44,049 bases of DNA from Anaerolineales bacterium (GTDB taxonomy: Bacteria > Chloroflexota > Anaerolineae > Anaerolineales > UBA6663): the NCBI GenBank assembly GCA_016789175.1, contig JAEURK010000207.1:1-44049 (forward strand). Direction: 5' to 3'. Positions 397-36,631 of the stretch are shown here, one piece after another (within the stretch, counting starts at the first letter, position 1; the number at the start of each line of letters is the position of its first letter). The notes beneath the pieces are model-generated. The model did not search any database. It was not told the origin of the DNA and saw only the letters and a program-made list of their open reading frames with translations. The position numbers were made by a program, and so were the translations under genes.

Positions 397-1461
397 TTAG
401 TGTCCGGGTTCACTCATCGATCCCAGCGTGTCCTGGATGACCTGACGCACCGCGGCGACGTCCAGGTCTTTCTTGTCGAGATAGGCCACCGCGCCGGCGT
501 TGAAACCCAGGCGGCGGAACTCGCGGTCCGGATAAGCACTGATCAGCACGACTCGGGTCGCCGGCGATGCCGCCTTGATGCGACGCGTGCACTGGATGCC
601 GTCCTCGTCGCGCAGGACCACATCCACAAAAGCCAGGTGGGGATGGATGCGCTCGGTCAACTGAAGCGCATCGGCGATGTCGCCGGCCTCGACCACCTTC
701 GACAACGGGTGGGTCTTGCCGATCAAGCGCGCCATCTGCTCGCGATAACGCGGGTTGTCGTCCACCAGCAAGACCGTCAGCAATCCTTCGGTGTTGGTCT
801 CAGGCGTCACACCAACCGGATCCGGATCGCGCAATACTTCCGGGTAACGCATCGCGAAATTGGTGGCTTCGAGCCGGCTCTCCACCGCCAGCGAGCGGTA
901 CAGGCTGGTCAGATGGTTCTCCACCGTCTTGACGCTCAGGTCCATAGCCTGCGCGATCTTGCGGTTGTCGAAGCCTTGCATCAAAAGCCGCAGCAACTCG
1001 CGCTGTCGGCGGGTCAGCGCCGGTGTCGCCCGCGGCGCGGCCGGCTGTCGGTGCACCAGTCGGTCGACCAACTGGGCCGGGATCCAGCGCTCGCCCTCGA
1101 TCACGCGCTGGACCGCCAGCTGCAGGTCCGCCAGGGGCTGATCCTTGAGGTGGTACCCGTCCACGCCTGCGCCGAGCAAGCCGACCAGATAACCCTCGTC
1201 GGCGTAGGCGCTGACTACCAGGATCCGCATCGCCGGGTACTCGGTTTTGAAGGTGCGCACCGCGCTGACCGGCTCGAAATCCGGCATCGCGACGTCGATC
1301 ACGATCAAGTCGGGCAGCAGCTCTCTCACCGCAGCCAGCAGATCGGGCCCATTGCCGACCTCGGCCACGACGTCCAGGTCTTGACGACCTGTCAGGGCGT
1401 TCCGCAAGCCTGCCCGCACGACCGCATGGTCGTCGGCGAGAACAATCCGAATGTTGGCCAT
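397..1461 (-). CDS. Response regulator with REC-HTH(LuxR)-REC architecture
   Basis: 354-residue DNA-binding response regulator. REC1 (about 1-125) has the acidic pair D10/D11, phospho-acceptor D56 in DLIVIDVAMPD, S84 and K106. A NarL/LuxR-type helix-turn-helix follows (about 147-203, with NRKIAQAMDLSVKTVENHL). A second full receiver (about 228-348) has D234/D235, D280, S308 and K330. NarL-family regulators normally end with the HTH, so a C-terminal second receiver is unusual. The gene is divergent from the XylF/XylH/ATPase-kinase operon, whose kinase is of the HisKA_3 class that normally pairs with NarL-type regulators, so it is the obvious partner. A G4/C4 inverted repeat lies about 50-75 bases upstream. 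Two receivers could integrate two kinases or act as a phosphate sink; that is inference. Confidence 0.92.
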   Translation of the reverse strand: MANIRIVLADDHAVVRAGLRNALTGRQDLDVVAEVGNGPDLLAAVRELLPDLIVIDVAMPDFEPVSAVRTFKTEYPAMRILVVSAYADEGYLVGLLGAGVDGYHLKDQPLADLQLAVQRVIEGERWIPAQLVDRLVHRQPAAPRATPALTRRQRELLRLLMQGFDNRKIAQAMDLSVKTVENHLTSLYRSLAVESRLEATNFAMRYPEVLRDPDPVGVTPETNTEGLLTVLLVDDNPRYREQMARLIGKTHPLSKVVEAGDIADALQLTERIHPHLAFVDVVLRDEDGIQCTRRIKAASPATRVVLISAYPDREFRRLGFNAGAVAYLDKKDLDVAAVRQVIQDTLGSMSEPGH

Positions 1462-1536: not shown

Positions 1537-1654
1537 ATGCGGAGAGGGCAATTCGGGTAGGAAAATGTCCGAAGCGTGTGGAGCGTAGGCTATGACGCGC
1601 CAGCGGTCGCTCCACGCATCCATGGTCCGTCGAGTATTATCTACCCAAGCCATC

Positions 1655-2734
1655 ATGCGTATTACCCTTGCCTTCTGGTTGGTCCTCGTCGCTCTGGCCG
1701 TTGGTTGCGCGCCCCCGGCCGCGCCGACGCAGGGCAAGATCGCGTTTCTGCTGCCCGAGACCAAGACGACGCGTTACGAATCTCATGACCTGCCGATCTT
1801 TCGCGCACAGCTGGCAGCCCTGGGCTTCAACGTCGAGCGCGATCTGATCTACAGCAACGCGACTCAGGATGCCGCCGCGCAGCAGCAGCAGGCCGAGGCC
1901 GCGCTTACGAACGGCGCGCGGGTGCTGGTGCTCGATCCGGTTGACTCGAGCTCGGCCACGGCCATCGCCGAGCTGGCTAAGGCGCGGGGTGTGCCGGTCG
2001 TGGCTTACGACCGGCTGATCACCGACTCGGCTGCCGTCGATTACTACGTGTCGTTCGACAACGTCGAGGTCGGTCGGCTGCAGGCCGAGGCGCTGGTGGC
2101 GGCCTTGACGGGCGAGGGTAATCCGCAAATCGTGATGCTGAACGGCTCACCCCTCGACAGCAACACCACGCAGTATCGTCAGGGCGCGATGGCCGTTTTG
2201 GACGGGCGCGTCACGATCGCGCAGAGCTTTGACGTGCCCGACTGGAGCCCGGACAAGGCGCAGGAGTTCATGGCGCAGGCGTTGACCGCGCTCGGCAACC
2301 AGGTCGACGGCGTGTATGTTGCCAACGACGGCATGGCCGGCGGCGCGATCGCGGCCATGAAGGCGGCCGGGCTCAGCCCCTTGCCGCCGGTCACCGGCCA
2401 GGACGCCGAGCTGGCCGCGATCCAGCGCATTCTGGTTGGCGAGCAATACATGACCGTCTACAAAGCCATCCACCGCGAAGCCACGGCTGCCGCCGATCTG
2501 GCTTATCAACTGTGGCTGGGCCGCACACCCGATCCGGCCCAGTTCAACGCCCAGGTCGACAACGGACGCATCCAGGTGCCCGCGATCCTGCTCAAACCCA
2601 TCAGCGTCACGCGCGTCAACCTGCGCGACACGATCTTCGCCGACCAGTTTTGGGATCCGGTGGAGGTCTGCGTTGGCGAATATGCGGTCGCCTGTGTGAC
2701 GGCCGGGATCGGGATCGAGGAAGGGGTGCCATGA
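1655..2734 (+). CDS. xylF: XylF-like (D-xylose type) sugar-binding lipoprotein
   Basis: 359-residue periplasmic binding protein. The signal sequence ends at a relaxed lipobox, LAVGC (C18), followed by a short Pro/Ala linker. The first lobe starts KIAFLLPETKTTRY. The block around YDRLI (118-122) and SFDNVEVGRLQAEAL (133-147) closely resembles the XylF signature, where E. coli XylF has a similar DRMI and ISFDNEKVG. XylF binds D-xylose, but ligand identity here is inferred. A longer reading frame begins at 1592; I prefer ATG 1655 because it starts the signal peptide. A TATTAT -10-like box at 1635-1640 leaves only a short leader, and no clear SD is seen. The stop overlaps the permease start (ATGA). 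In Clostridium beijerinckii a XylF-like protein (XylFII) acts as a sensor with the kinase LytS, a useful precedent. Confidence 0.88.
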   Translation: MRITLAFWLVLVALAVGCAPPAAPTQGKIAFLLPETKTTRYESHDLPIFRAQLAALGFNVERDLIYSNATQDAAAQQQQAEAALTNGARVLVLDPVDSSSATAIAELAKARGVPVVAYDRLITDSAAVDYYVSFDNVEVGRLQAEALVAALTGEGNPQIVMLNGSPLDSNTTQYRQGAMAVLDGRVTIAQSFDVPDWSPDKAQEFMAQALTALGNQVDGVYVANDGMAGGAIAAMKAAGLSPLPPVTGQDAELAAIQRILVGEQYMTVYKAIHREATAAADLAYQLWLGRTPDPAQFNAQVDNGRIQVPAILLKPISVTRVNLRDTIFADQFWDPVEVCVGEYAVACVTAGIGIEEGVP

Positions 2735-3945
2735 CAACCCCCGCGCCCCTAAGCGGCGGCTCGACCCTGTGGGCCCAGGTCTGGTCGCGGGTCAATCGGC
2801 CGGACTTCGCGTATGTGCCGATGCTATTCGGGCTGGCCCTGATCTGGGCGGTGTTTCAGCTCGTCAACCCGAATTTTCTGACGCCGCTCAACCTCACCAA
2901 CCTGGTCCTGCAGATCGCGGCCGTCGGCACGATCGCGGTCGGCCTGGTGCTCGTGTTGCTGCTGGGCGAGATCGATCTCTCGGTCGGCGTGGTCAGCGGG
3001 CTCGCGGCCGCCGTGATGGCGGTGTTGAACGTCAAGAGCGGTGTGCCGGGCCCGATCGCGGTCCTGGCCGGGGTCGGCGCCGGCCTGGCGATCGGTTGGG
3101 TCCATGGCACCTGGATCACCAAGCTGCGCATCCCGTCCTTCATCGTGACCCTGGCCGGTCAATTGGCCTGGCAGGGCGCTCTGCTCTCTGTGCTGGGCAA
3201 CACCGGCACGGTCAACCTGCGCGATCCGTTCATCCTCAGCCTGGCGGGTACGTTCTTTAAGCGTGACGTGCCCGGCGGTGAGATGCTGAGCTGGGTCATC
3301 GGCGGGTTGTTTGTGAGCCTGTATGCGGTCGGGCTGGCCTGGGAACGGCGCCAACGGTTGCAGGCGGGGCTTGCGGCCCGTTCGTTACGGTCGCTGGTGG
3401 CACAAGTGGGGATCATCGGCGTGGGTGGGCTGGGCGCGATCGCCATCCTCAACGCCGATCGGGGCCTGCCGTCGGCGCTGGTGCTCTTCATCGGCATCGT
3501 CGTGTTCTTCGACTACATCACGCGACGCACGGTGTTTGGTCGCAGCATTGCCGTCGTCGGCGGCAGCCCGGAGGCGGCGCGTCAGGCCAACCTTGACGTC
3601 GACCTGATCCGCATCTCGGTCTTCGGCCTGGCATCGATGCTCGCGGCCTGTGGCGGGATCCTGGCCGCCTCGCGATTGCTGGCCGTCCATCAGAGCTCGG
3701 GCAGTGGCGACGTCTTGCTCAATGCGATCGCCGCGGCCGTGATCGGCGGTGTCAGCGTATTCGGTGGGCGGGGCGGGGTGTGGTCGGCCGTGCTCGGTGC
3801 GCTCGTGGTCGGCTCGATCTCGAACGGCATGGACCTCCTGGTGGTGGCGCCCCCGGTCAAGTTCATGGTGACCGGCGCCGTGTTGCTCGGCGCCGTGACC
3901 CTCGATGCCGTGGCGCGTCGGCGGCGTGAGGCGGCCGGGCTGTAG
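2731..3945 (+). CDS. xylH: XylH-like sugar ABC transporter permease
   Basis: 404-residue integral membrane permease of the sugar (CUT2/XylH) type. Long hydrophobic segments cover most of the protein. The segment with LVLVLLLGEIDLSVGVVSG (about residues 69-90) is the family hallmark GEIDLSVG. The C-terminal AAVIGGVSVFGGRGGVWSAV region matches the conserved loop before the last helices. As in XylH the middle is longer than in RbsC. The start ATG overlaps the stop of the xylF-like gene by four bases, indicating translational coupling. It should form the membrane pore for the adjacent XylF-like protein. Whether it transports or only senses is open, since the only ATPase in the operon is the kinase fusion. 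Confidence 0.9.
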   Translation: MTTPAPLSGGSTLWAQVWSRVNRPDFAYVPMLFGLALIWAVFQLVNPNFLTPLNLTNLVLQIAAVGTIAVGLVLVLLLGEIDLSVGVVSGLAAAVMAVLNVKSGVPGPIAVLAGVGAGLAIGWVHGTWITKLRIPSFIVTLAGQLAWQGALLSVLGNTGTVNLRDPFILSLAGTFFKRDVPGGEMLSWVIGGLFVSLYAVGLAWERRQRLQAGLAARSLRSLVAQVGIIGVGGLGAIAILNADRGLPSALVLFIGIVVFFDYITRRTVFGRSIAVVGGSPEAARQANLDVDLIRISVFGLASMLAACGGILAASRLLAVHQSSGSGDVLLNAIAAAVIGGVSVFGGRGGVWSAVLGALVVGSISNGMDLLVVAPPVKFMVTGAVLLGAVTLDAVARRRREAAGL

Positions 3946-4085: not shown

Positions 4086-5669
4086 ATGACCTCACCTCTC
4101 CTGCGCGCGACCGACGTCTCCAAACGCTTCGGTCGCCTCTGGGCCCTCGAGAACGTCAGTTTTGAGCTTCAGCCGGGTGAAGTCCTGGGCGTGGTCGGGC
4201 GGCGGGCCTCGGGCAAGTCGACGTTGTTACACGTGCTGGCGGGTCTCTATCCGCCCCAGACCGGCCAGGTGTGGTTGAGGGGTCAGCCGCTCAAGTTCGC
4301 GGGACCTCCGGCCACCCGACGGCAGGGCATCGAACTGGTCCAACAGCGCCCGGTGTTGTCCGACCAGCTGGACGTGACTCAAAACGTCTTCCTGGGGCGG
4401 GACCGCAGTTGGCGAGCGCAACTGGGCATCCCGAACCTGACCTGTCAGGCGGGCCGGGCGCGCGACTTGCTGGCCGCGCTCGACACGCCGCCAGGCCTGT
4501 TGCATGCCCGGCTTGACAGCCTCTCGGATGAGCAGCGTCAGATCGTGGCTCTGGCGCGCGCGTTCTGTCAGCCCGCCCCGCTGATCCTGCTCGACGAGGC
4601 CCTGGCTGCGCTCAGTTTTCAGCGTCAGGAGCGCTGTCTGGCGCTGATCCGCAGGCTGGCAGCCGAGGGCACCGCTTTTCTGATCGCCAGCGACAACCTC
4701 AAGCACCTGTTCGAGGTTACCCACCGCATCCTGGTGTTATATGAGGGCCGTCTGGTGGCCGATCAGCTCACCAGCGAGGCCACGCCGCGCGAGATCGTCG
4801 AGTTGATCGTCGGCGCCTCACAACAGGAGCAGGTCACGCCCGTCATCTGGGCCCTGGAGAGCTATCACCAGCTTCAACAACAGGCCGAGGAGCTGCGCCG
4901 CAAGCAGGCGGTCCTGCAGGAGGACCTGCAGGCCCAGGGCTCGCTCAATCAGCAGTTGTTGGTCCGCTTGCGCAAGCAGGTTGACGCGCTCGATCGCCTG
5001 AACGTCGCCCTGCAGGCGGCGCAGCGGCGCCTGATGACCGAGCGTGAGCAGGAGCGCAAGGCGCTGGCGCGCGAACTGCACGACTCGGTCATCCAGGACC
5101 TGCTCAGCTTCAACTATCGGCTGGAGGATCTCGAAGGCCATACCGTCGAAGCCCATCAGCGGGCCGAGTTATCCGAGCTGCGCGATGACATCCGCGTGAT
5201 CGTCACGGATCTGCGACGCCTATGCAGCGATCTGCGCCCGCCGACGATCGACAGTCATGGCCTGACGGCGGCGATCCGCTCGCACGCGCAGGAATGGGCC
5301 GACAAGCATCGCGTCGCCCTGGAGTTGGACGTGGATTCGCAGCTCGGACGTCTTCCGGAAGCCGTCGAACTGTCGATCTTCCGGATCGTGCAGGAGGCGC
5401 TCAACAACGTGCGCAAACATGCTGCCGCGCGCCGCGTCCGTCTCTCGTTACAGCGCACAGCCTCGACACAGCTGTTGCTGCGCCTGGAGGACGACGGTCA
5501 GGGGATCGCCGAGCCGGTCGATCTGGCGGCGCTCTCGGCCAGCAAGCACTTCGGCCTGCTCGGCATCAGCGAACGCGTGGCGTTGTTAGGTGGCAGCATG
5601 CGGGTCGATTCAGCACGCCAGGGTGGCGTTGCCCTGAATATCGAGATCCCCAGCCCGTCGCCGACGTGA
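4086..5669 (+). CDS. Sugar ABC ATPase domain fused to a HisKA_3/HATPase_c histidine kinase
   Basis: 527-residue chimera. Residues 1-245 form one ABC ATPase domain: Walker A GRRASGKST (38-46, K44), Q-loop near 86-87, signature LSDEQ (146-150, not LSGGQ) and Walker B LILLDE (166-171). The switch region reads ASDNLKH, with D203 where the H-loop His is expected. Residues 255-320 are a Gln/Glu/Leu-rich coiled coil. Residues 321-385 are HisKA_3 with ERKALARELHDSV (phospho-acceptor H332). Residues 420-525 are HATPase_c with N-box EALNNVRKHA (437-446), G1 DDGQGI (469-474) and G2 GLLGISERV (490-498). There is no membrane segment, so it should dock on the permease like any ABC ATPase. Sugar ATPases such as XylG carry two ATPase domains in about 500 residues; here the kinase replaces the second. 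The partner regulator is divergent at 397-1461. Inference: a transporter-coupled sugar sensor. Confidence 0.93.
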   Translation: MTSPLLRATDVSKRFGRLWALENVSFELQPGEVLGVVGRRASGKSTLLHVLAGLYPPQTGQVWLRGQPLKFAGPPATRRQGIELVQQRPVLSDQLDVTQNVFLGRDRSWRAQLGIPNLTCQAGRARDLLAALDTPPGLLHARLDSLSDEQRQIVALARAFCQPAPLILLDEALAALSFQRQERCLALIRRLAAEGTAFLIASDNLKHLFEVTHRILVLYEGRLVADQLTSEATPREIVELIVGASQQEQVTPVIWALESYHQLQQQAEELRRKQAVLQEDLQAQGSLNQQLLVRLRKQVDALDRLNVALQAAQRRLMTEREQERKALARELHDSVIQDLLSFNYRLEDLEGHTVEAHQRAELSELRDDIRVIVTDLRRLCSDLRPPTIDSHGLTAAIRSHAQEWADKHRVALELDVDSQLGRLPEAVELSIFRIVQEALNNVRKHAAARRVRLSLQRTASTQLLLRLEDDGQGIAEPVDLAALSASKHFGLLGISERVALLGGSMRVDSARQGGVALNIEIPSPSPT

Positions 5670-7707: not shown

Positions 7708-8709
7708 ATGAAGACCGTCGACCATGCCCAACTCGAAGACACACACGCCGCTCGCCTGCAGGCCTCGGCCGAGGGTGTCAAGCGCTTCATGGATGCCCAA
7801 TACGGGTTGTCGGTCCATTGGGGTCTCTACAGCCTGAGCCATCACGGCGGCGAGTGGATCTACTATCAGGATCAGATCCCGTTCGAGACGTACCGGCAAC
7901 GGGTGAGCCAGTTCAACCCGGTGCGGTTCAACGCCGACGAGTGGGGGGATCTGATGGTCGAGGCCGGCCAGAAGTTCCTGTTCATCACCACGAAGCACCA
8001 CGACGGCTTCTGTCTGTGGGACTCGGCCCTGACGGAATTCAAGATCACGCACACGCCCTTCGGGCGCGACGTCCTGGCCGAATTGGCCCCCGCGCTCCAG
8101 GCCCGCGGCATCGCTTTGCACTTTTACTATTCGCTGGTGGATTGGACGCATCCGGCCTATCGGACCGATTGGGCGGCCTACCGGGCGTATTATCAGGGCC
8201 AGATTCGCGAGCTGTGTACCAACTACGGCGAGATCGGCGGGTTCGTCTTCGACGGATATTGGCCCCGCTCGGTGTTCGAGACCGACGTGGAGCGGGCCTA
8301 CTTTGCCGCCGGCGGTGCCTGGGACCTGGCGGGAACGTACGACCTGATCCATGGCCTGCAGCCCAACGCCGTGATCGCCAACAATACGCATGTGCCGCCG
8401 CTCAAGGGCGAGGACTATCAGGTCTGGGAGCTCGACCTGCCGGGCGAGAATTCGATCGGCTTCAATACTGCCGAGGTCGGCGACAAGCCGCTCGCATCCT
8501 GGTGGAACCTCAACCATGGTTGGTCGTACCAACCCTGGAACCACAAGTTGCGCAGCGTCGAAAACATCCTCAGTCTGCACGAGATCCTGCGTGAGCGTCG
8601 AGCCGTCTTCATGCTCAACGTCGGCCCGCGTCCATTCGGCGATATCCACCCCGAAGAGCAATCCATCCTGCGCCAGGTGGGCCACGTGTTGCGCCAGCGC
8701 GAAGCCTAG
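7708..8709 (+). CDS. Alpha-L-fucosidase, GH29 family
   Basis: 333-residue glycoside hydrolase that removes terminal alpha-L-fucose. GH29 blocks are visible: QYGLSVHWGLYS (31-42), FITTKHHDGFCLWDS (92-106) and GGFVFDGYW (177-185). D182 in the last is the expected catalytic nucleophile. There is no signal peptide and no C-terminal beta-sandwich or carbohydrate-binding module, so this is a minimal, cytoplasmic form acting on imported oligosaccharides. GAGGA sits about ten bases upstream of ATG 7708. It is divergent from araB. The substrate may be another alpha-L-linked sugar, since GH29-like proteins are diverse. Confidence 0.9.
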   Translation: MKTVDHAQLEDTHAARLQASAEGVKRFMDAQYGLSVHWGLYSLSHHGGEWIYYQDQIPFETYRQRVSQFNPVRFNADEWGDLMVEAGQKFLFITTKHHDGFCLWDSALTEFKITHTPFGRDVLAELAPALQARGIALHFYYSLVDWTHPAYRTDWAAYRAYYQGQIRELCTNYGEIGGFVFDGYWPRSVFETDVERAYFAAGGAWDLAGTYDLIHGLQPNAVIANNTHVPPLKGEDYQVWELDLPGENSIGFNTAEVGDKPLASWWNLNHGWSYQPWNHKLRSVENILSLHEILRERRAVFMLNVGPRPFGDIHPEEQSILRQVGHVLRQREA

Positions 8710-21240: not shown

Positions 21241-21346
21241 GTTTCTTGCGAGGGCGTGTAGCTCACGACGGTCGCCTTGCCGGTCTCAGCACGCCGCAAA
21301 GTAGATCGGAATGGTCGTTAATCCCGATACACCATGGGAGACGATC

Positions 21347-23470
21347 ATGAAACGCAACGCCATCCTGCGGGTGATGTGGGTGTTCGGGCTGGCCCTGAGC
21401 GGAGCCGCGGCCACGGGCCCAGCGTCGCCGGCAGTCGCGGGCACGACCATCACAGTCACCACGACGGCTGACGAACTCAACACCGACGGAGACTGCTCGT
21501 TGCGGGAAGCCGTCGCCGCCGCCAATTACGACGTCGCAGTCGACGGCTGCCCGGCCGGGAACGGCGGTGATGTGGTCGATATTCCGGCCGGCACCTTCCC
21601 GATCGCGGCGACGCAGCCGGGCCCGGGTAACAGCGGCGCCAACCCGTTGGTGTTGATCGGATCGGTGACGATCAGGGGCGCCGGCGCATCCGCCACCCGG
21701 CTGGAAGGCGACGGCTGGACCTCCATCTTCGCGGCTCAGGCGCCGAGCTACGCGCTGGTGTGTGACAGCGTCAACGACACAGTTCGACGGTACCGTCTCG
21801 ATGGCAGTTTCTATGGAACGACCGTGACCGCCGGCAGCGGCGGCTTGAACATGCCGCTGGCCGCGGTGGTTGACGGCCCGGACCTGTACGTGGCCGGTTT
21901 TTTGAGCGGCATCGATCGCTATGATCTGAGCACCGGCGCACACGAGGCGGATCTGGTCGGCACAACGGCCAACGGCCACATCTTTGCCCCAACGGATTTC
22001 GCGCTTCGCGACAACGTGATTTGGGCCACCAGCTATCAACCCGGCGTCGACGGCGGGATCTATCGGTTCAACCAGCTGAACGGGGCCTTTCTCAGCCAGC
22101 CGATCGTCAACGGCAGCGGCGGCCTGACGATCCCCAACAGCGTGCTGCTCGAACCCGACGACGACGTGCTCGTCGTTGATCCGGCCAGCCACCGGGTGCT
22201 GCGCTACAACAGTGCGGGGACGTACGAGGCCGTCGCTATCGCTACCGGGCCGGGCGGGCTCAATCAGCCCCGTGGGCTCACGGCCGGCTTCCAGACCCTT
22301 CCCAATCGTCTGTACCTCACCAGCGAGAACAACGACAAGGTCGCGGCCTATCTTTGGAACACGGGCACGCAGGCCTGGACCTACCAAAGCGACATCGTGC
22401 CAGGCGGCAGCGGTGGGCTGGATCGACCGACCGGGGTGGTGGTCGGACCGGACGGCATGTTGTACGTGATCGCCCAGGGTACTCATCAGATCCTGCGCTA
22501 TGACGCGCGTACCGGCCAGGCGTTGGGCGCGCTGGTCACCGCCGGCGGCGGGCTGGGTGCGCCGAGTTGTCTGGCCTTTGCCGCTTCGTCGGAGCAGCCC
22601 GTAGTCGTGGTGCACGACCTGACTGTCGCGCACTCGCGCTCGGCCTCGCTCGCCGTCAGCACGGGTGTCGACCTGACCGTGGAGCGCGCCGTGTTCGAGG
22701 GTGGCTTCGAGATGCTGGGCGCGATCCAAAACCACGGCACCCTGACCGTGCGCGAGACGCTCTTCAGCGACAACCAGGCCAGTGGCGTGTTGAATACCGG
22801 CGGAACTGTCTTCATCTACGACTCGACGGTGACCGGTGGCAGCTCGCAGCAGGTCACGCTCGGCTCGGGCCTGACCAACGACGGCGGCACCATGATCGTG
22901 TTCGATAGCACGCTCTCCGGCAACGCCTCGTTCGCGACCGGTATCGTGCGCAACATGGGTGAGGGCGTGCTCTTCCTCAGCTTTGTCACGGTGACGGCCA
23001 ACACCCTGCCGGGCGGGTTGGGCGACAACGGCGTGGTCAACGTCGGTGGCGACGTGTTCATCGGCAGTTCGTTGCTGGCCGGCAACGCCGGCACCACCTA
23101 TGGCGTGGACTGCGCCGGGACGATCACGAGCATGGGCTACAACCTGATCGGCAACAACCAGGATTGCGACCTGGCCGCGTTGCCGACCGACCAGGTCGGT
23201 ACACCGGGCGCCCCGATCGATCCGCTCCTGAGCCCGCTGGATGATCACGGCGGTCGGACGCCGACCCATTTGCCGCTGCCCGGCAGCCCCGCGATCGACC
23301 GCGGCAAGACGACGCCCAGCGGCTTCCTGTCGTTCCATTGTGACACCGCCGATCAGCGCGGCTTTGCCCGGCCCTTCGACGGGGACGCCGTGGCCGGCGC
23401 GCTCTGCGACGTCGGCGCGACGGAGTACGTGGTCTTCACGACCCTGGTGCCGGCGCTGCTCAAGGATTAG
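21347..23470 (+). CDS. Secreted CSLREA-type beta-helix protein with a nested beta-propeller
   Basis: 707 residues with a signal peptide (about 1-32). The CSLREA motif is at 50-55 in DGDCSLREAVAAAN, followed by an IPAGTF block and IRGAGASATRLEG, the usual start of these predicted surface proteins. At about 132-415 an NHL/propeller-like section intervenes, with repeated units such as VNDTVRRYRLDGSFYGT, SHRVLRYNSAGTY and THQILRYDARTG. The beta-helix resumes at about 418 (VVVVHDLTVAHSRSASL) with NHGTLTVRETLFSDNQ-type coils. The end carries GSPAIDRG and a DQRGFARP...CDVGATEY block common to this class. There is no membrane anchor or sorting signal that I recognise. GGGAG precedes ATG 21347. Likely a cell-surface adhesin or scaffold; function unknown. 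Confidence 0.85.
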   Translation: MKRNAILRVMWVFGLALSGAAATGPASPAVAGTTITVTTTADELNTDGDCSLREAVAAANYDVAVDGCPAGNGGDVVDIPAGTFPIAATQPGPGNSGANPLVLIGSVTIRGAGASATRLEGDGWTSIFAAQAPSYALVCDSVNDTVRRYRLDGSFYGTTVTAGSGGLNMPLAAVVDGPDLYVAGFLSGIDRYDLSTGAHEADLVGTTANGHIFAPTDFALRDNVIWATSYQPGVDGGIYRFNQLNGAFLSQPIVNGSGGLTIPNSVLLEPDDDVLVVDPASHRVLRYNSAGTYEAVAIATGPGGLNQPRGLTAGFQTLPNRLYLTSENNDKVAAYLWNTGTQAWTYQSDIVPGGSGGLDRPTGVVVGPDGMLYVIAQGTHQILRYDARTGQALGALVTAGGGLGAPSCLAFAASSEQPVVVVHDLTVAHSRSASLAVSTGVDLTVERAVFEGGFEMLGAIQNHGTLTVRETLFSDNQASGVLNTGGTVFIYDSTVTGGSSQQVTLGSGLTNDGGTMIVFDSTLSGNASFATGIVRNMGEGVLFLSFVTVTANTLPGGLGDNGVVNVGGDVFIGSSLLAGNAGTTYGVDCAGTITSMGYNLIGNNQDCDLAALPTDQVGTPGAPIDPLLSPLDDHGGRTPTHLPLPGSPAIDRGKTTPSGFLSFHCDTADQRGFARPFDGDAVAGALCDVGATEYVVFTTLVPALLKD

Positions 23471-23471
23471 G

Positions 23472-23522
23472 ACATCGGGGCACATCGGGAGACACCCGGT
23501 GTCTCCCGATGTGCCCCGATGT
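23472..23522. repeat. 51-base palindrome made of direct and inverted 10-mers
   Basis: Perfect 25-base arms (23472-23496, 23498-23522) around one base. The left arm itself contains ACATCGGGGC and ACATCGGGAG in tandem. It fills almost the whole gap between the CSLREA gene and hyuA. A terminator role is possible, but there is no T-run. Confidence 0.8.
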
Positions 23523-23534
23523 AGAATCGCTCGC

Positions 23535-25622
23535 ATGCGTATCGGCATCGACATCGGGGGCACGTTCACGGATCTGGTTCTGATCGACGACGCCACCGGC
23601 GCGGTGCTGGTCGGCAAGGCCCTGACTACGCCCGCTGACCCGGCCCGCGGCTTCCTCCAGGTGCTGCACGAGGCCCTGGCCCGGGCCGGTCGCCCCCTGA
23701 CACAGGCGCGCACGCTCGTGCACGGCACCACGCTGGTGACCAACGCCCTGATCGAACGCTCCGGGGCGCGCACGGCTCTGCTGGCCACCCAGGGCCACCG
23801 CGATATGGTCGAGATCGGACGCGAACAGCGCTTCGATCTTTATGATCTGACACTGCAACGACCGGCGCCGCTCGCGCCGCGCTGGCTGCGCTTCGATGTC
23901 CCCGAACGTATCCTGGCTGATGGCTCGGTGCGCGATCCGCTCGACGTCGCGTTCGTCGAGGCCCTGGCCATCGAGCTGGCTGCCAACGACGTCAGCGCCG
24001 TGGCGATCTGTTTCCTCAACAGCTACCTCAATCCGCTGCATGAGCAAGCCGCGGCCGCCGCGATCCGCCGGGCCGCGCCCGGGCTGCGGATCACGCTTTC
24101 GGCCGAGGTCGCGCCCGAGATCCGCGAATACGAGCGCGCGACGACAGGCCTGGCTAATGCGTATGTCCAGGCGCGTCTCGAGGACTATCTGCGGTCGCTC
24201 ATGGCTGAGTTGGAGCGGGCCGGGTTTCGCGGCAGCTTCCTCCTGATGCAGTCGGCCGGCGGGCTGGCCGCGCCGGAGACGGCGGCGCGCTTCCCGGTGC
24301 GCCTGCTCGAATCGGGCCCGGCCGGCGGGGTGCTGGCGGCCGCGCGAATCGCCGAGCAGGCCGGCTTCAGCGATGTGTTGGCCTTCGACATGGGCGGCAC
24401 CACCGCTAAGCTTTCGGTGATCGAGGGCGGGGTGCCGCTGGTGGCCCGCGACTTCGAGGCCGATCGCGTCCATCGCTTCAAACGCGGCTCGGGGCTGCCG
24501 ATCCGGGTCCCGACGATCGACCTGATCGAGATCGGCGCGGGCGGCGGCTCGATCGCGCGGCTCGATACGCTCGGCCTGCTCAAGGTCGGACCTGAGTCGA
24601 GCGGCGCAGACCCGGGTCCCGCCTGCTATGGCCGGGGCGGCACGGCCCCAACCGTGACCGACGCCGACCTTGTACTCGGGTACCTCGATCCGGATTTCTT
24701 CCTCGGCGGCGCGTTGGCGCTCGACGTGGCCGCGGCCCGGGCGGCGCTGGCCACCCTGGGGGCGCAACTCGGCCAGACTGTCGAACAGGTCGCCTGGGGC
24801 ATCCATCAGGTCGTCAATCAAAGCATGGCCAACGCCGCGCGCCGCCATGTGCTCGAGCGCGGGCAGGACCCGCGGCGCCTGCCGGTGCTGGCCTTTGGGG
24901 GCGCCGGCCCGGGCCATGCGACGCGCGTGGCGCAGGCCCTGGGTGCGCCGGGCGTGATCGTGCCGCCGGCCGCGGGTGCGCTGAGCGCCCTGGGATTCCT
25001 GGTGGCGCCACCGTCGTTTGAGGGCGTCCGTTCGTTCCCGGGCGAGCTGGCGCGTCTCGAGTGGGACGCGGTCGAGCGCTTGCTGCAGGAGTTGGCCGAC
25101 GTCGGGGATGCCCAACTCAAGGCGGCCGGCGTCGAGCCCGAGCGGATCACACACACCCGCTTCGCCGAGTTGCGCTACCTCGGTCAGGGTTACGAGATCA
25201 GCGTGCCCGTTCCGGCGGCCGGATCGACCCAACCGCTGGCGCAACTGCAGACGGCCTTTGCCGCCGCCTACCAGCGGCTGTATCAACGCCCCGGGCCGCC
25301 GGTGCCGATCGAGGCCGTCTCGTGGCGCGTGGTCTCATCGGGGGCGTCGCCACAGCTGGCCCTGCCGCGGCTGGCGGGCGGTGATCCCGAGTCGGCTCGC
25401 AAAGGCGAGCGCGCCGCGTACTTCCCGGAATCCGGCGGCTACCAGGCTGTGTCGGTGTACGACCGACAGCGTCTTGGGGTTGGCACGCGAGTCTCCGGCC
25501 CGGCCCTGATCGAGGAACGTGAATCGACCATCGTGGTGCGTCCCGGTCAGCTGGCGCGTGTCGACCGGCTGGGGTGTGTGATCCTGGACGAAGATCCAGC
25601 GATGACGGGAGACCCGGCATGA
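23535..25622 (+). CDS. hyuA: Hydantoinase/oxoprolinase family protein, HyuA-type subunit
   Basis: 695-residue ASKHA-fold ATPase subunit. Family members cleave N-methylhydantoins or 5-oxoproline or carboxylate ketones with ATP. RIGIDIGGTFTDLVLID at the N-terminus is the phosphate-1 motif. HGTTLVTNALIERSGA, FDMGGTTAKLSVIEGG and IGAGGGSIARLD are canonical HyuA blocks, as is LAFGGAGPGHA in the C-terminal half. ATG 23535 starts the conserved region directly; a longer frame to 23241 runs back through the palindrome and the previous gene and is rejected. There is no clear SD. The stop overlaps hyuB by four bases. Without structural gene context the substrate cannot be chosen. Confidence 0.92.
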   Translation: MRIGIDIGGTFTDLVLIDDATGAVLVGKALTTPADPARGFLQVLHEALARAGRPLTQARTLVHGTTLVTNALIERSGARTALLATQGHRDMVEIGREQRFDLYDLTLQRPAPLAPRWLRFDVPERILADGSVRDPLDVAFVEALAIELAANDVSAVAICFLNSYLNPLHEQAAAAAIRRAAPGLRITLSAEVAPEIREYERATTGLANAYVQARLEDYLRSLMAELERAGFRGSFLLMQSAGGLAAPETAARFPVRLLESGPAGGVLAAARIAEQAGFSDVLAFDMGGTTAKLSVIEGGVPLVARDFEADRVHRFKRGSGLPIRVPTIDLIEIGAGGGSIARLDTLGLLKVGPESSGADPGPACYGRGGTAPTVTDADLVLGYLDPDFFLGGALALDVAAARAALATLGAQLGQTVEQVAWGIHQVVNQSMANAARRHVLERGQDPRRLPVLAFGGAGPGHATRVAQALGAPGVIVPPAAGALSALGFLVAPPSFEGVRSFPGELARLEWDAVERLLQELADVGDAQLKAAGVEPERITHTRFAELRYLGQGYEISVPVPAAGSTQPLAQLQTAFAAAYQRLYQRPGPPVPIEAVSWRVVSSGASPQLALPRLAGGDPESARKGERAAYFPESGGYQAVSVYDRQRLGVGTRVSGPALIEERESTIVVRPGQLARVDRLGCVILDEDPAMTGDPA

Positions 25623-32386: not shown

Positions 32387-33268
32387 ATGCCCATCGAGAT
32401 TCGACCGATCCAGACCCTCGACGACTTCGTCCAGGTCGAGGACGTCCAGCGCGAGATCTGGAGCGACTCCGAAACCCAGATCGTGCCGCGCCATCTCATC
32501 AATGTAACGGCCCACAGCGGCGGCGCCGTGATCGGTGCGTTCGACGGCGAGCGCCTGATCGGATTCGTCTACAGCTTTATCGGCACCGACGAGCACGAGC
32601 CGCGCCGCCCGGCGATGGCGCACCTCAAGCATTGCTCGCACATGCTGGCGGTGCTGCCGGAGTATCGCGGCCACGACCTGGGGCTCAAACTCAAGCTCGC
32701 GCAACGCGACTTCGTCAACAAGCAGGGCATCCGCCTGGTCACGTGGACATTTGACCCGCTCGAATCGAGGAACGCGCACCTCAACATCGGCCGCCTGGGC
32801 GCGATCGTCACCACGTACGCGAACGACGCCTACGGCGAGATGGTGGACGGCTTGAATGCCGGCCTGCCCAGCGATCGCTTGGAGGCGGAGTGGTGGATCA
32901 CGTCGCCGCGAGTGCGCGAGCGGCTCGAGGGCGGCCGGGCAGCGCTCAATCTGGTCGCATACCTGCAGGCCGGCGCCCCGATCGTCAATGCCTCGACGAC
33001 CGCACCCGATGACGGCCTGCCGCGCCCGCCGGAAACGCTGACCCAGCCGACCGGCATGTTCGCGCTGGTCGAGGTGCCGCGCGACTTCCAGTCGCTCAAA
33101 GCCTACGACGGCGTGCTGGCTCGCGACTGGCGCTTCAATGTGCGTGAGGCGTTCTGCTCGTTGTTCGAGGGCGGTTACATGGTGACCGATTTCTTTGCCG
33201 AGGAGCACGGCGGGCGATTACGTTCGTTCTATGGCCTGGCGCCGCGGGATGTGCCGCGCGAAGGCTAA
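32387..33268 (+). CDS. GNAT-family acetyltransferase-like protein (COG3375 type)
   Basis: 293 residues. The first half is a GNAT domain with VIGAFDGERLIGFVYSF and HMLAVLPEYRGHDLGLKLKLAQRD, the acetyl-CoA-binding segment. WTFDPLESRNAHLNIGRLGA and the later part match the uncharacterised double-GNAT family COG3375, found in Chloroflexota and others. ATG 32387 lies 27 bases after the epimerase gene. Its TAA stop shares bases with the TAG stop of the convergent HEAT gene in CTAA at 33265-33268. Acceptor unknown. Confidence 0.85.
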   Translation: MPIEIRPIQTLDDFVQVEDVQREIWSDSETQIVPRHLINVTAHSGGAVIGAFDGERLIGFVYSFIGTDEHEPRRPAMAHLKHCSHMLAVLPEYRGHDLGLKLKLAQRDFVNKQGIRLVTWTFDPLESRNAHLNIGRLGAIVTTYANDAYGEMVDGLNAGLPSDRLEAEWWITSPRVRERLEGGRAALNLVAYLQAGAPIVNASTTAPDDGLPRPPETLTQPTGMFALVEVPRDFQSLKAYDGVLARDWRFNVREAFCSLFEGGYMVTDFFAEEHGGRLRSFYGLAPRDVPREG

Positions 33269-35688
33269 GCCGTGCCGGTCGCCGCAGACTGCACGCCGAC
33301 ATCCGGGTCACGGGCCAGCTGCGCCAGCGCCGCGCTCCCGTGAGAACTGCCCAGGCCCCGCAACCCGCGAGCCGCCGCCGCGCGCTGAACCGGGTCGCGA
33401 CTGCGCGCCGCCAGGAGCAACGCGCGCAGGGCGCGATCGGGGTCGTGCCGCAACTCGTTGATGACGCTGCCGCGCAGTTCCTCGTGCGCCAGCAAGGCCA
33501 CCAGGGCCTCGTACGCCGCCTGATCACGGCAATGACTGAGCGCCAGAACGGCGCGTTCGCGTACGGCCGGCTCGGTGTCACGGGCCAGCGCCGCCAGCAA
33601 CGGCGCCGCTTCAGAGACCGCGATCTCGCCCAGGGTATCCGCCAGGGCCAGCCGCACGCTCGGGTCCGGGTCATGGCGGAGCGGCGTCAGGAGATCCAGC
33701 ACACTGGCATCGCCGTTCGAAATGACCGCCAGCGCCCTCAAGGCGTGCAAACGCACCTGGATCTCGTCGTCGAACACGCCTGCGCGCAGCACCGGCAGCA
33801 GCGTCGGATCGGCATTGATCTCCAGGCCCTGATAGGCTGCGTCGCGCACGGCGCCGGCGCGATCGCTCGTGCCGAGCAGCAGGATCTCGCGGGCGCGGAT
33901 GTCATCCAACCGCGCGCAGGCTGCCATCACCGCGCGGCGCACCCACGGGTCCGCATCCTGCGCCAGCTCGCGCAACGGGCCGAAGGCGCGGTGATCGCGC
34001 AGGCGGCTGAACGCGCCGACCAGAGCGAGTCGCACGCGCCACTCGGGGTCGCGAGCCAGCGGTTCGAGCGCGGCCAGAGTGCGCGAGTCGTTGATATGAC
34101 TGAGGGCCTCGATCGATTTCTGGCGCACCAGCCAATCCCGATCGCCGGTGGCCTCGATCAGCACATTGACCGCGCGCCGGCCGCGCACGAGTGAGAGCGC
34201 GTTGGCGGCGGCGTGCCGGAGCCGCGGGTCGTGACTGCGGATGGCGTTGAGCAGGATGCTGGCCGCCAGTTCGTCGCCAAGCATACTCAGCGCGCGCGCG
34301 GCAGCCCACTTGATCGCCTCATCAGCCTGGCTTTGATAGAGCACACCCTGCAGATAGCGCTTGAACTCGTCGATCAGGGCTTCTTCGCCGAGCCCGCCGA
34401 TCAGGCTGATCGCATGTTCCGCCAGGGCCGGGTCGTTGAGGGCCAACACCAGGGCCGCGTAGGCCGGCTCGCCGCCAAGCCCGGTCAGGGCGCGCAGGAC
34501 CGCGATGCGCACGGTCTGCGGCTCGTCGTTGAGGTGGCGGAAGAGCGGCTGCGCGCCGCTCGAGTCGCCGATCAGGCCAAGCAGGTCGGCCGCGGCCTCG
34601 CGCACCTGCGGCTCCGGACGTTCGAGCGCCTCGATCAACTTGGGCACTGCGACGATGTTGAAACGCAGCAGCGCCTCGAGCGCGGCATCGCGCAGAGCGG
34701 AATCGGTGGTGTTGAGACAGGCGATCAGATCGGCCAGGGCATCCGGGCGGCCGAGCCAGCCGAGCACGTGCGCGGCATAGGCGTTGTTGGGCGCGACGCC
34801 GGCCCGCAGCTCGCGCTGCAAGGCGACGGTCGAGATGAGCGGGCGCAGACGGGCTGTGCGCAGCAGGCTGGCGCGCCGCACCGTCGGCTCGACGACGATG
34901 CGGTAGAGCGCCTCGAGCAACTGTCCACGCCAGCCATCCAGCGCGACATGCGCCGGCCCGCGCGGCTGGGTCGATAACCACTCGAGCGCGCCCATCAACG
35001 CTGGAACCGCATCGGTGCTGGCCAACACACCCAGGGTCCGGACGGCGGCCAGGCCGATTTCGGTCTGGCCATGCTCGATCTCGCTGACCAGCCCGCAGAG
35101 CGGTTCGACGGCCTGGACATCCCCGCGCTGGCCGAGCGCCAGGATCGCGGCCACCCGCACTCGTTCGGGGCCGGCCGAGCGCGCAAGTTTGAGCAGGGCC
35201 AGCGTGCCGCGCTCGTTATCGAGTTGCCCGAGCGCTGCTGCGGCCGCGCAGCGGACGTCGTGGGACTCCTCGGCGTTCTCGAGCAATGCAATCAGGGGCT
35301 CCAACGCGCCGGTCCGGCCGAGATCGCCCAGGGTTGCCGCGGCCCAGGCACGCACGTCCGGGTCGGGGTCGTTCAAGGCGTCGAGGACATCGGCCGGGCG
35401 GGCCTGTGCTATCTCGAGCAGGGCGCGCCGCGCGCTTTGGCCGGGGACGCGCTCCGGTTGTTCGCGGCCGAGCGCCACCAGTTGATGGATGAGGTCGGGC
35501 TCGGTCTGGGCCAACAGGGCCTTGATGATGGCGTTCTGAGCCGGGAAGTGCGGCTCGCTCAAGGCCGCGATCAAGGCCCGGGCGCCGGCGGCCGAGGGGC
35601 GCGCGCCCAGGTACTCGGCGGCAGCCTGCCGGACCGCCGGCGCGGGATCGTGCAGATCGGCGAGGATGCGGGTGAGCGGATCAGACAT
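33265..35688 (-). CDS. Large HEAT-repeat (PBS lyase-like) protein
   Basis: 807 residues, essentially one continuous alpha-solenoid of about two dozen HEAT-like repeats of roughly 30 residues, for example DPAPAVRQAAAEYLGARPSA, DPDPDVRAWAAATLGDLGRT and DPEWRVRLALVGAFSRLRDH. No catalytic domain, signal or membrane helix. Such solenoids act as protein-interaction scaffolds; phycobilisome lyase is not implied. Its start overlaps the end of the REC-GGDEF gene by eight bases, so it is translated as part of the same operon and may scaffold c-di-GMP or receiver signalling (inference). Confidence 0.9.
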   Translation of the reverse strand: MSDPLTRILADLHDPAPAVRQAAAEYLGARPSAAGARALIAALSEPHFPAQNAIIKALLAQTEPDLIHQLVALGREQPERVPGQSARRALLEIAQARPADVLDALNDPDPDVRAWAAATLGDLGRTGALEPLIALLENAEESHDVRCAAAAALGQLDNERGTLALLKLARSAGPERVRVAAILALGQRGDVQAVEPLCGLVSEIEHGQTEIGLAAVRTLGVLASTDAVPALMGALEWLSTQPRGPAHVALDGWRGQLLEALYRIVVEPTVRRASLLRTARLRPLISTVALQRELRAGVAPNNAYAAHVLGWLGRPDALADLIACLNTTDSALRDAALEALLRFNIVAVPKLIEALERPEPQVREAAADLLGLIGDSSGAQPLFRHLNDEPQTVRIAVLRALTGLGGEPAYAALVLALNDPALAEHAISLIGGLGEEALIDEFKRYLQGVLYQSQADEAIKWAAARALSMLGDELAASILLNAIRSHDPRLRHAAANALSLVRGRRAVNVLIEATGDRDWLVRQKSIEALSHINDSRTLAALEPLARDPEWRVRLALVGAFSRLRDHRAFGPLRELAQDADPWVRRAVMAACARLDDIRAREILLLGTSDRAGAVRDAAYQGLEINADPTLLPVLRAGVFDDEIQVRLHALRALAVISNGDASVLDLLTPLRHDPDPSVRLALADTLGEIAVSEAAPLLAALARDTEPAVRERAVLALSHCRDQAAYEALVALLAHEELRGSVINELRHDPDRALRALLLAARSRDPVQRAAAARGLRGLGSSHGSAALAQLARDPDVGVQSAATGTA

Positions 35689-36631
35689 GGCGCTGATCCT
35701 TCACGACCATGCTGCCGCCGCGCGATTTGGCGAACAGCTTGAGCTCGGCCCCGATCTCGGCCACCTCGTAATGGCTGGTGACGTCGCGATATTCGTTGTG
35801 CACGATCGCGACCGCGATCGAGAGCAGCGCGTATTTGCGCAGGATCCCCTGGCGGTCCTTGGCCGTAATGTAGCCGCGCCGTCGATCGGCCGGGGTGTAG
35901 AGCTCGCTGACCTGATGATCGAATTCGGCCACGATCCGGTTCGCGATCGGCTCGGAGCGATCCGGCCGGGTCAGCACGACGAAATCGTCGCCGCCGACAT
36001 GGCCGACCAGATCGGCGGGGCCGCCGTGTTCATGCGCGGCCGCGACGATCACGCGCGCGGTCATCCGGATGGCTTCATCGCCGGCCGCGAAGCCGTACAC
36101 GTCGTTATAGGCCTTGAAGTTGTTGAGATCGATGTAGAGCGCGGCGAAGGCGCCGGCGCCCGGCTCCGTCCGCCGCCGCAGCTCTTGCTCGATCACCAGG
36201 TTGCCGGGCAGGCCGGTCAGCGGGCTGACGGCCGGCTTGAGCCGAGCCCGGCGGATCAGCGCGACGATGCGCGCCGCCAGCAGTCCGAAGTCGATCGGGC
36301 GCGCCAGGTACTCGTCGGCACCGGTCTCGAGCACCTCACGTAGCGGCTGCGAGCCGGGCAAGCTGCCGAGCACGATGATCGGGATGTGGCGGGTACGGGT
36401 GTCGTCCAGCAGACGCTGGCAGACCTGCGACCAGCGCATGTCGGGCATGTGCTGGTCGCAGATCACCAGGTCGGGGAGGTCGATCTGCGCGGTCTGCAAG
36501 CCCTGCGCGGCGGTGCTCACCGGGCGCACGTCATAGGCCTCGCTGTCGAGATGCAGCCGGAGCAGATGCAGCATCGGCATCTCGGGCGAGATGAGCAAGA
36601 TGCTGGCGCGGCCGACATCCATAATCGACAT
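35681..36631 (-). CDS. Receiver domain fused to a GGDEF domain with altered motifs
   Basis: 316 residues. The receiver (about 10-125) keeps phospho-acceptor D59 in VICDQHMPD, but the N-terminal acidic pair is reduced to SPE (15-17) and the conserved Lys is Arg (R111 in YLARPID). The GGDEF domain (about 133-310) starts SPLTGLPGN and has a metal-site YIDLNNFKAYNDVYGF. Its signature is GGDDF (213-217) rather than GG(D/E)EF, with no RxxD inhibitory site. It may be a weak diguanylate cyclase or a GTP/c-di-GMP-binding receptor. It is embedded in an operon with a VTT protein one base upstream and the overlapping HEAT gene downstream. Confidence 0.88.
   Translation of the reverse strand: MSIMDVGRASILLISPEMPMLHLLRLHLDSEAYDVRPVSTAAQGLQTAQIDLPDLVICDQHMPDMRWSQVCQRLLDDTRTRHIPIIVLGSLPGSQPLREVLETGADEYLARPIDFGLLAARIVALIRRARLKPAVSPLTGLPGNLVIEQELRRRTEPGAGAFAALYIDLNNFKAYNDVYGFAAGDEAIRMTARVIVAAAHEHGGPADLVGHVGGDDFVVLTRPDRSEPIANRIVAEFDHQVSELYTPADRRRGYITAKDRQGILRKYALLSIAVAIVHNEYRDVTSHYEVAEIGAELKLFAKSRGGSMVVKDQRHV

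Follow-up and report, generated by a model that had tools for sequence, protein, structure and literature searches.

A degenerate sugar-importer ATPase domain fused to a histidine kinase in Chloroflexota: a candidate subunit of a sugar receptor made from ABC-importer parts

Introduction

The CUT2 importers (RbsABC, XylFGH) share the families of their binding protein, permease and ATPase domain with the system described here. The BceAB-BceS type joins an ABC transporter and a histidine kinase into one signalling unit; its permease is of a different family, its ATPase is a working one and its kinase is separate and membrane-bound. In the UhpC-UhpB-UhpA system, a transporter homologue serves as the receptor that drives a NarX-type kinase and a LuxR-type regulator. 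There, the receptor UhpC belongs to the major-facilitator proteins and the kinase UhpB is membrane-spanning. XylFII-LytS and CuaD-CuaS-CuaR contain a sugar-binding protein that activates a kinase and a regulator. For CuaDSR, the sugar-binding protein is described to act through the kinase and the regulator to switch on importer genes, and CuaS to carry two membrane helices plus an outside part, which was modelled together with the binding protein (PMC10384115).

In our study, a stretch of 44,049 nucleotides from an Anaerolineales bacterium (contig JAEURK010000207.1), called the window below, was found to contain a gene in which an ABC ATPase-like domain is fused to a histidine kinase. Unlike the ATPases of CUT2 importers, the fusion combines a Glu as fourth signature residue with a missing switch His, its ATPase-like domain is joined to a kinase, and the window operon is devoid of a true ATPase gene. 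The system would resemble UhpC-UhpB-UhpA in principle but is not a member, its permease being a BPD_transp_2 protein of ABC parts and its kinase having no membrane segment. It is likewise akin to XylFII-LytS and CuaDSR without belonging to them: the fusion kinase has neither membrane helices of its own nor an outside part, and the permease would be the go-between. From BceAB-BceS it differs in the three points named above. Signalling transporters are known, and the cases that we know of use a separate membrane kinase. No published description of an ABC-histidine kinase fusion or of such a transporter-as-receptor was found among open-licence papers searched with narrow terms.

Results

The operon and the fusion protein of the window

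The features of the operon were located as follows.

397..1461, minus strand: divergent response regulator, receiver - LuxR-type HTH - second receiver, with D56 and D280
1592..2734, plus strand: XylF-like sugar-binding protein (Peripla_BP_4); NCBIfam xylF 227.8 bits, below the cut-off of 389.55
2731..3945, plus strand: BPD_transp_2 sugar permease; GguB-like, 232.6 bits, below the cut-off; presumed start at ATG 2731
4086..5669, plus strand: ABC-histidine kinase fusion gene, 527 amino acids; a single ABC ATPase-like domain, a long helix and HisKA_3/HATPase_c
4086..4830, plus strand: putative pseudo-ATPase (nucleotide-binding) domain, residues 1-248
4197..4223, plus strand: Walker A GRRASGKST, residues 38-46; K44 at 4215-4217
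4521..4535, plus strand: signature LSDEQ, residues 146-150; E149 (4530-4532) at the place of the fourth residue, Gly, of LSGGQ
4593..4598, plus strand: Walker B D170 and E171
4692..4694, plus strand: switch position D203, Asp where His is expected
4824..5051, plus strand: linker, predicted with modest confidence as the first part of a continuous helix (residues 247-352) from the nucleotide-binding domain to the phosphoacceptor helices
5052..5243, plus strand: HisKA_3 domain, residues 323-386; phosphoacceptor H332 at 5079-5081
5367..5654, plus strand: HATPase_c kinase domain, residues 428-523

The order of the operon was binding protein, permease and fusion; with the presumed start at ATG 2731, the permease gene shares its first 4 bases with the binding-protein gene. 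No ATPase gene was present between the binding-protein and permease genes of the window, where relatives carry one. The permease contained the cytoplasmic loop GRSIAVVGGSPEAA, largely kept, with S in place of the usual N. We take the GRxIxxxGGNxEAAxxxGI loop to be the ATPase-contacting motif of this permease family. Among permeases of the window type, the loop contained GGN in the genomes G001 and G004 and GGS in the window, and GGN was conserved in all eight aligned permeases from complete importers.

The divergent regulator contained the receiver Asp and LuxR HTH of a NarL-type regulator, followed by an extra second receiver. The receiver - LuxR HTH - receiver order, both receiver Asp residues and the Lys of the second receiver were conserved in all 27 aligned regulators. 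An araB-like L-ribulokinase gene adjoined the operon in the window, and none was found (E <= 1e-10) in the searched flanks of the other fusion loci; being unique to the window among these loci, this gene was rejected as a guide to the ligand. An alpha-L-fucosidase-like gene (Pfam Alpha_L_fucos; 7708-8709, plus strand) was also present near the operon, as a possible target or hint to the ligand. Further along the window, a long HEAT-repeat protein (33265-35688, minus strand) adjoined a receiver-GGDEF protein (35681-36631, minus strand). An 841-codon open frame (21263-23788, minus strand) lay opposite and beside hydantoinase-like genes and had no Pfam match; the GC-rich DNA may have given rise to it as a shadow frame.

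Pfam assigned the fusion to ABC_tran (residues 21-173, 94.3 bits), HisKA_3 (323-386) and HATPase_c (428-523). The best 25 of 184 NCBIfam matches all fell far short of their cut-offs; YtfR scored 129.8 bits (cut-off 850) and the MctS kinase 122.2 bits (cut-off 700), and UhpB scored 99.7 bits on the kinase part (cut-off 408). The full-length fusion was a single copy in its own genome. The sequence-only reading had described Walker A, Walker B and E171 as intact, the signature as LSDEQ and the switch His as replaced by D203; each of these was confirmed in the translation at the correct residue number, along with Q87 and with S202-D203-N204 at the switch. The protein has the fold of an ABC ATPase together with both Walker motifs, as in a CUT2-importer ATPase, but owing to E149 and D203 a dimer of it would lack even one complete ATP site, comprising catalytic Glu, switch His and usable signature. 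The kinase part contained the HisKA_3 His and the HATPase_c N and G boxes of a NarX-type kinase, and N441, D469, G471 and G490 of these boxes were invariant in two 16-row alignments.

The AlphaFold2 model, built on 16 sequences, had a mean pLDDT of 79.0 and a pTM of 0.48. The pLDDT blocks of the ABC domain ranged from 83 to 95, except for residues 101-120 (61), whereas the helix 247-352, predicted to run from the ABC domain to the phosphoacceptor helices, had a lower confidence (about 52-80). The 50 solved structures listed as Foldseek matches were ABC ATPases. No membrane segment was seen in the window fusion (highest 19-residue hydropathy 1.28) and no membrane helix across 56 fusions, where the highest value was 1.72 (L049, from residue 30, in the Walker A region).

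Distribution and conserved residues of the fusion family

A full-length fusion was found in 16 of the 61 genomes searched in the genus, family and order of the window, its own genome included, and an alignment search (E <= 1e-90) found the fusion in 27 of 400 genomes sampled across the phylum, again with its own. In the named collection, those matches among the 80 loci listed that covered both domains (L070-L086, two of them partial or broken) all had Chloroflexota names, and the cultured Ornatilinea apprima was among the carriers listed. The fusion is a conserved Chloroflexota family, as far as the matches listed go, so that carriers in other phyla are possible.

Of 58 candidates, 56 full-length homologues were aligned (54 distinct, some of them close copies), leaving out L080 with a broken frame and L085, which was partial. 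Removal of 13 close copies gave a thinned set of 43. Three of the 56 (L070, L079, L082) were repeats of other genomes and were placed outside both the 43 and the 53 loci of the neighbourhood count. The reference set consisted of 21 catalytically intact domains, namely 12 first domains of dual ATPases and nine single ATPases.

Glu at signature position 149 was conserved in all members (56/56; 43/43 thinned) and was absent from the intact relatives (0/21). His at position 203 was found in no member (0/56; 0/43 thinned) and in every intact relative (21/21). Since both changes run through the whole family, chance and sequencing error are ruled out as the cause of the odd motifs. Position 171 was variable, with Glu in 28/56 members and in 16/43 of the thinned set, where it was otherwise D (21), N (3), A, G or S (1 each). 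In one respect the sequence-only reading needs correcting: the intact E171 does not hold as a family feature, the congener G001 having Asp at this position, and E171 of the window protein is uninformative and incidental.

D170 was kept throughout (56/56; 43/43 thinned), as was the phosphoacceptor H332 (56/56). The Walker A Lys (K44) was kept in 52/56 members and in 39/43 of the thinned set. The remaining four, L018, L019, L021 (G014, G039, G051) and L084, contained I, V, V and T, respectively, in its place and retained the kinase His. In the Q-loop region, Q87 (40/43), N100 (40/43) and G104 (41/43) were largely conserved. At 23 further or related positions, the residue was kept in less than 70% of the thinned set when compared with the 21 intact domains; the change in the family is therefore not limited to catalysis. 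Taken together, the alignments show that the family changed the residues that hydrolyse ATP and contact the ATP of the partner, while the fold, the Q-loop region and, in most members, the nucleotide pocket were retained.

The earlier proposal that the domain binds ATP and hydrolyses it slowly or in an altered way, because E171 is intact, is weakened by these counts. With E171 replaced in 27/43 members, the Glu at position 149 invariant and the Walker A Lys gone in four, a domain that no longer hydrolyses ATP productively is more probable than one that does so slowly, and the domain would at most bind ATP. Changes of the type LSGGQ to LSGDQ are said, in a passage of the ABCB10 paper (PMC4459825), to affect hydrolysis in other transporters but not ATP binding.

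A slow but working importer, in which the fusion is the real ATPase of the binding protein and permease and the kinase reports flux, would agree with the Walker A, D170 and E171 of the window protein, with the largely retained permease loop and with an operon that holds no other ATPase gene. Bce-type transporters report flux in this manner. However, both sites of a fusion homodimer would contain Glu at the Gly4 place and lack the switch His, and E171 is replaced in 27/43 members, including G001, which has the same gene order. We therefore regard a slow importer as quite improbable.

Comparison with importer ATPases

The motifs were compared with both domains of 12 dual ATPases (four E. coli K-12 proteins, namely RbsA, XylG, MglA and AraG, plus eight others; 24 domains). 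The switch His was missing in all 12 second domains, and signature position 4 was A or S in four of the 12 first domains. Glu at this position was found in none of the 24 domains, and neither was the combination of both changes. The expectation that bona fide sugar importers would be free of such substitutions was thus borne out for the pair in one domain and not for each alone; either change by itself is ordinary in real importers and is no proof of a sensor. Four single ATPases contained LSGGQ (three) or FSGGE (one), all with Gly4, the catalytic Glu and the His, and five more contained LSGGQ with Glu and His.

In the tree, which was made by a quick method with SH-aLRT support only, the fusion domains formed one clade (99), nearest to the single ATPases (93, not starred), which were not one strict group and included one long branch. 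Dual ATPases were placed away from the fusion domains with both their first (91) and their second (99) domains. Judged by this tree, the nucleotide-binding domain of the fusion is akin to single sugar ATPases that retain their catalytic residues, presumably of the FrcA-like type (single-ATPase systems like FrcBCA). An origin from the second domain of an RbsA-type ATPase, which likewise lacks the His, was supported neither by the tree nor by the scores. It is also unlikely that LSDEQ is the LSxGEQ of some first domains shifted by one residue, as the nearest single ATPases contain LSGGQRQ and the alignment is free of gaps.

Gene neighbourhood of the fusion

The neighbourhood was counted within 8 kb at 53 loci, leaving out repeats of the same genome. 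A sugar permease gene was present in 35/53 loci, the two-receiver regulator in 36/53 and either of them in 44/53; among the 33 loci with at least 5 kb on both sides, 26 had the permease and 23 the regulator. The own genome contained 24 matches to the permease family on 14 contigs, from which, by arithmetic, about 4-5% of random genes would be expected to have a permease this close. In 18/53 loci, some of them on short contigs, the 8 kb around the fusion showed no permease. Six members of one genus (L164-L166, L168, L169, L171) lacked both the permease and the regulator over about 8 kb to either side, and the binding-protein-like gene of L171 was better matched by the LacI-type regulator RbsR.

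These six members are among the points in favour of an energy or nucleotide sensor, in which a soluble dimer of the nucleotide-binding domains binds or loses ATP and so sets the kinase according to the energy state of the cell, with the permease untouched and the importer genes mere targets. The lack of any visible membrane segment in the fusion and the conservation of the Walker A Lys and D170 in the thinned set would also agree with it. The four members devoid of this Lys have nevertheless kept the kinase His, Q87, N100 and G104 are retained about as well as Walker A, and a permease gene accompanies the fusion in the majority of loci; such a sensor is rather unlikely in our judgement.

The loci were found in four settings. 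In the first, permeases outnumbered ATPases (11/53 loci; L077, with an ATPase gene truncated where its contig stops, was not counted); the window, G001 and G004 were of one kind and the other eight of another. These eight contained an RbsC-like permease with an RbsB-like binding protein, seven of them beside a dual ATPase and a XylH-like permease. The second setting held binding protein, single ATPase, permease and fusion together, in the third an entire dual-ATPase importer lay close to the fusion, and the fourth, comprising the six members of one genus and the loci on short contigs, had nothing near it.

The cytoplasmic loop was altered in all eight spare RbsC-like permeases (G, followed by R/S/N and then D/N/S). 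In these eight, from L029, L076, L155, L156, L158, L160, L161 and L162, the loop was GRDERA-like as against GGNxEAA. An unusual partner in place of a normal ATPase would agree with the altered loop, but relaxed selection would produce it as well. LsrC and LsrD are two permeases paired around one dual ATPase, and each spare RbsC-like permease could likewise form a pair with the XylH-like permease next to it, a point against the reading of the fusion as a receptor subunit.

Of the 35 loci with a permease, 32 also contained an importer ATPase gene within 8 kb, the truncated gene of L077 included. The only permease loci with no such gene within that distance were the window, L027 and L076, and just 4 kb upstream of the fusion was available in the window and L027. 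This count weakens both the reading of the fusion as a receptor subunit and the idea that a whole importer became a receptor. It favours a fusion that is an add-on to an importer, where a true ATPase, neighbouring or shared, serves the permease and the fusion binds or competes, reporting or braking transport. In the congener G001, a complete XylG-type dual-ATPase importer lay just past the regulator, which supports an add-on and counts against a pure receptor. The contig of the window ends where G001 has this importer, so the window may have one too.

Operon series and absence of the ATPase gene

In the genus of the six members, the regulator was located apart from the fusion. At L187 and L188, it was divergent to a binding protein, an intact single ATPase (LSGGQ, Glu, His) and a permease, the fusion lying elsewhere; the other four genomes of the genus had a permease equally far from the regulator. 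L173, whose GTDB family includes that genus, contained binding protein, ATPase, permease and fusion in this order with a divergent regulator. In the window, G001 and G004, the order was binding protein, permease and fusion, again with a divergent regulator, and the fusion was the only ATPase-like gene of the operon. The window shared 60-61% identity with L187 and L188 in the binding protein and 51% in the permease. Within the GTDB family of the window, the fusion (E <= 1e-45) and the permease (E <= 1e-60) occurred in the same three of six genomes.

A separate single ATPase that could serve the window permease was sought and none was seen in its own genome, where the best matches (up to 41%) lay in long frames. 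As this genome is 93.86% complete and is in 460 contigs, an ATPase may have been overlooked. The several such ATPases in long frames of dual size again agree with an add-on to an importer, but for the window permease they would require the sharing of an ATPase between transporters, and this permease is of the single-ATPase kind, as its identity with that of L187 and L188 indicates. We consider an add-on distinctly improbable.

Discussion

We lean, somewhat beyond an even balance, towards the reading that the fusion docks on the permease and, judged from the protein sequence, is unable to drive sugar transport and instead turns the movement of the permease into kinase activity. The fusion would then be the kinase subunit, on the cytoplasmic side, of a sugar receptor made from ABC-importer parts. 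Two copies would sit on the permease homodimer at the usual docking place of the ATPase, and the XylF-like binding protein would bring the sugar signal from outside. The nucleotide-binding domain would serve as a coupler, with the fold, Walker A, the Q-loop and the stretch after it retained, Glu at the Gly4 place and the switch His gone. Movement of the permease would turn the helix 247-352 and so set the HisKA_3 kinase, which would phosphorylate the divergent two-receiver LuxR-type regulator. The targets of the regulator probably include nearby sugar-importer genes, and a pentose, for instance arabinose or xylose, is a possible ligand. The family-wide loss of catalytic residues, the intact kinase, the conserved regulator and the permease neighbours support, short of proof, the earlier suggestion of a sensing rather than a pumping role.

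A mixed pair of the fusion and a true ATPase would, we reason, leave every site without a proper signature, without a switch His or without either. For this reason the two proteins, where both exist, should compete and not cooperate, and a permease may act as a transporter when the true ATPase is docked and as a receptor when the fusion is docked. More tentatively, we propose that a whole importer became a transmembrane receptor, with the true ATPase gene dropped in the window lineage and the permease switching between both roles elsewhere; we hold this to be possible rather than probable.

If the fusion is such a receptor subunit, it would represent a new route from pump to receptor, in which a kinase free of membrane segments uses a permease as its membrane part by way of an altered ATPase domain. 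The binding protein, permease, kinase and regulator could each be studied singly, and the order of events is testable on the operons, which form a series from those that have the true ATPase to those that lack it.
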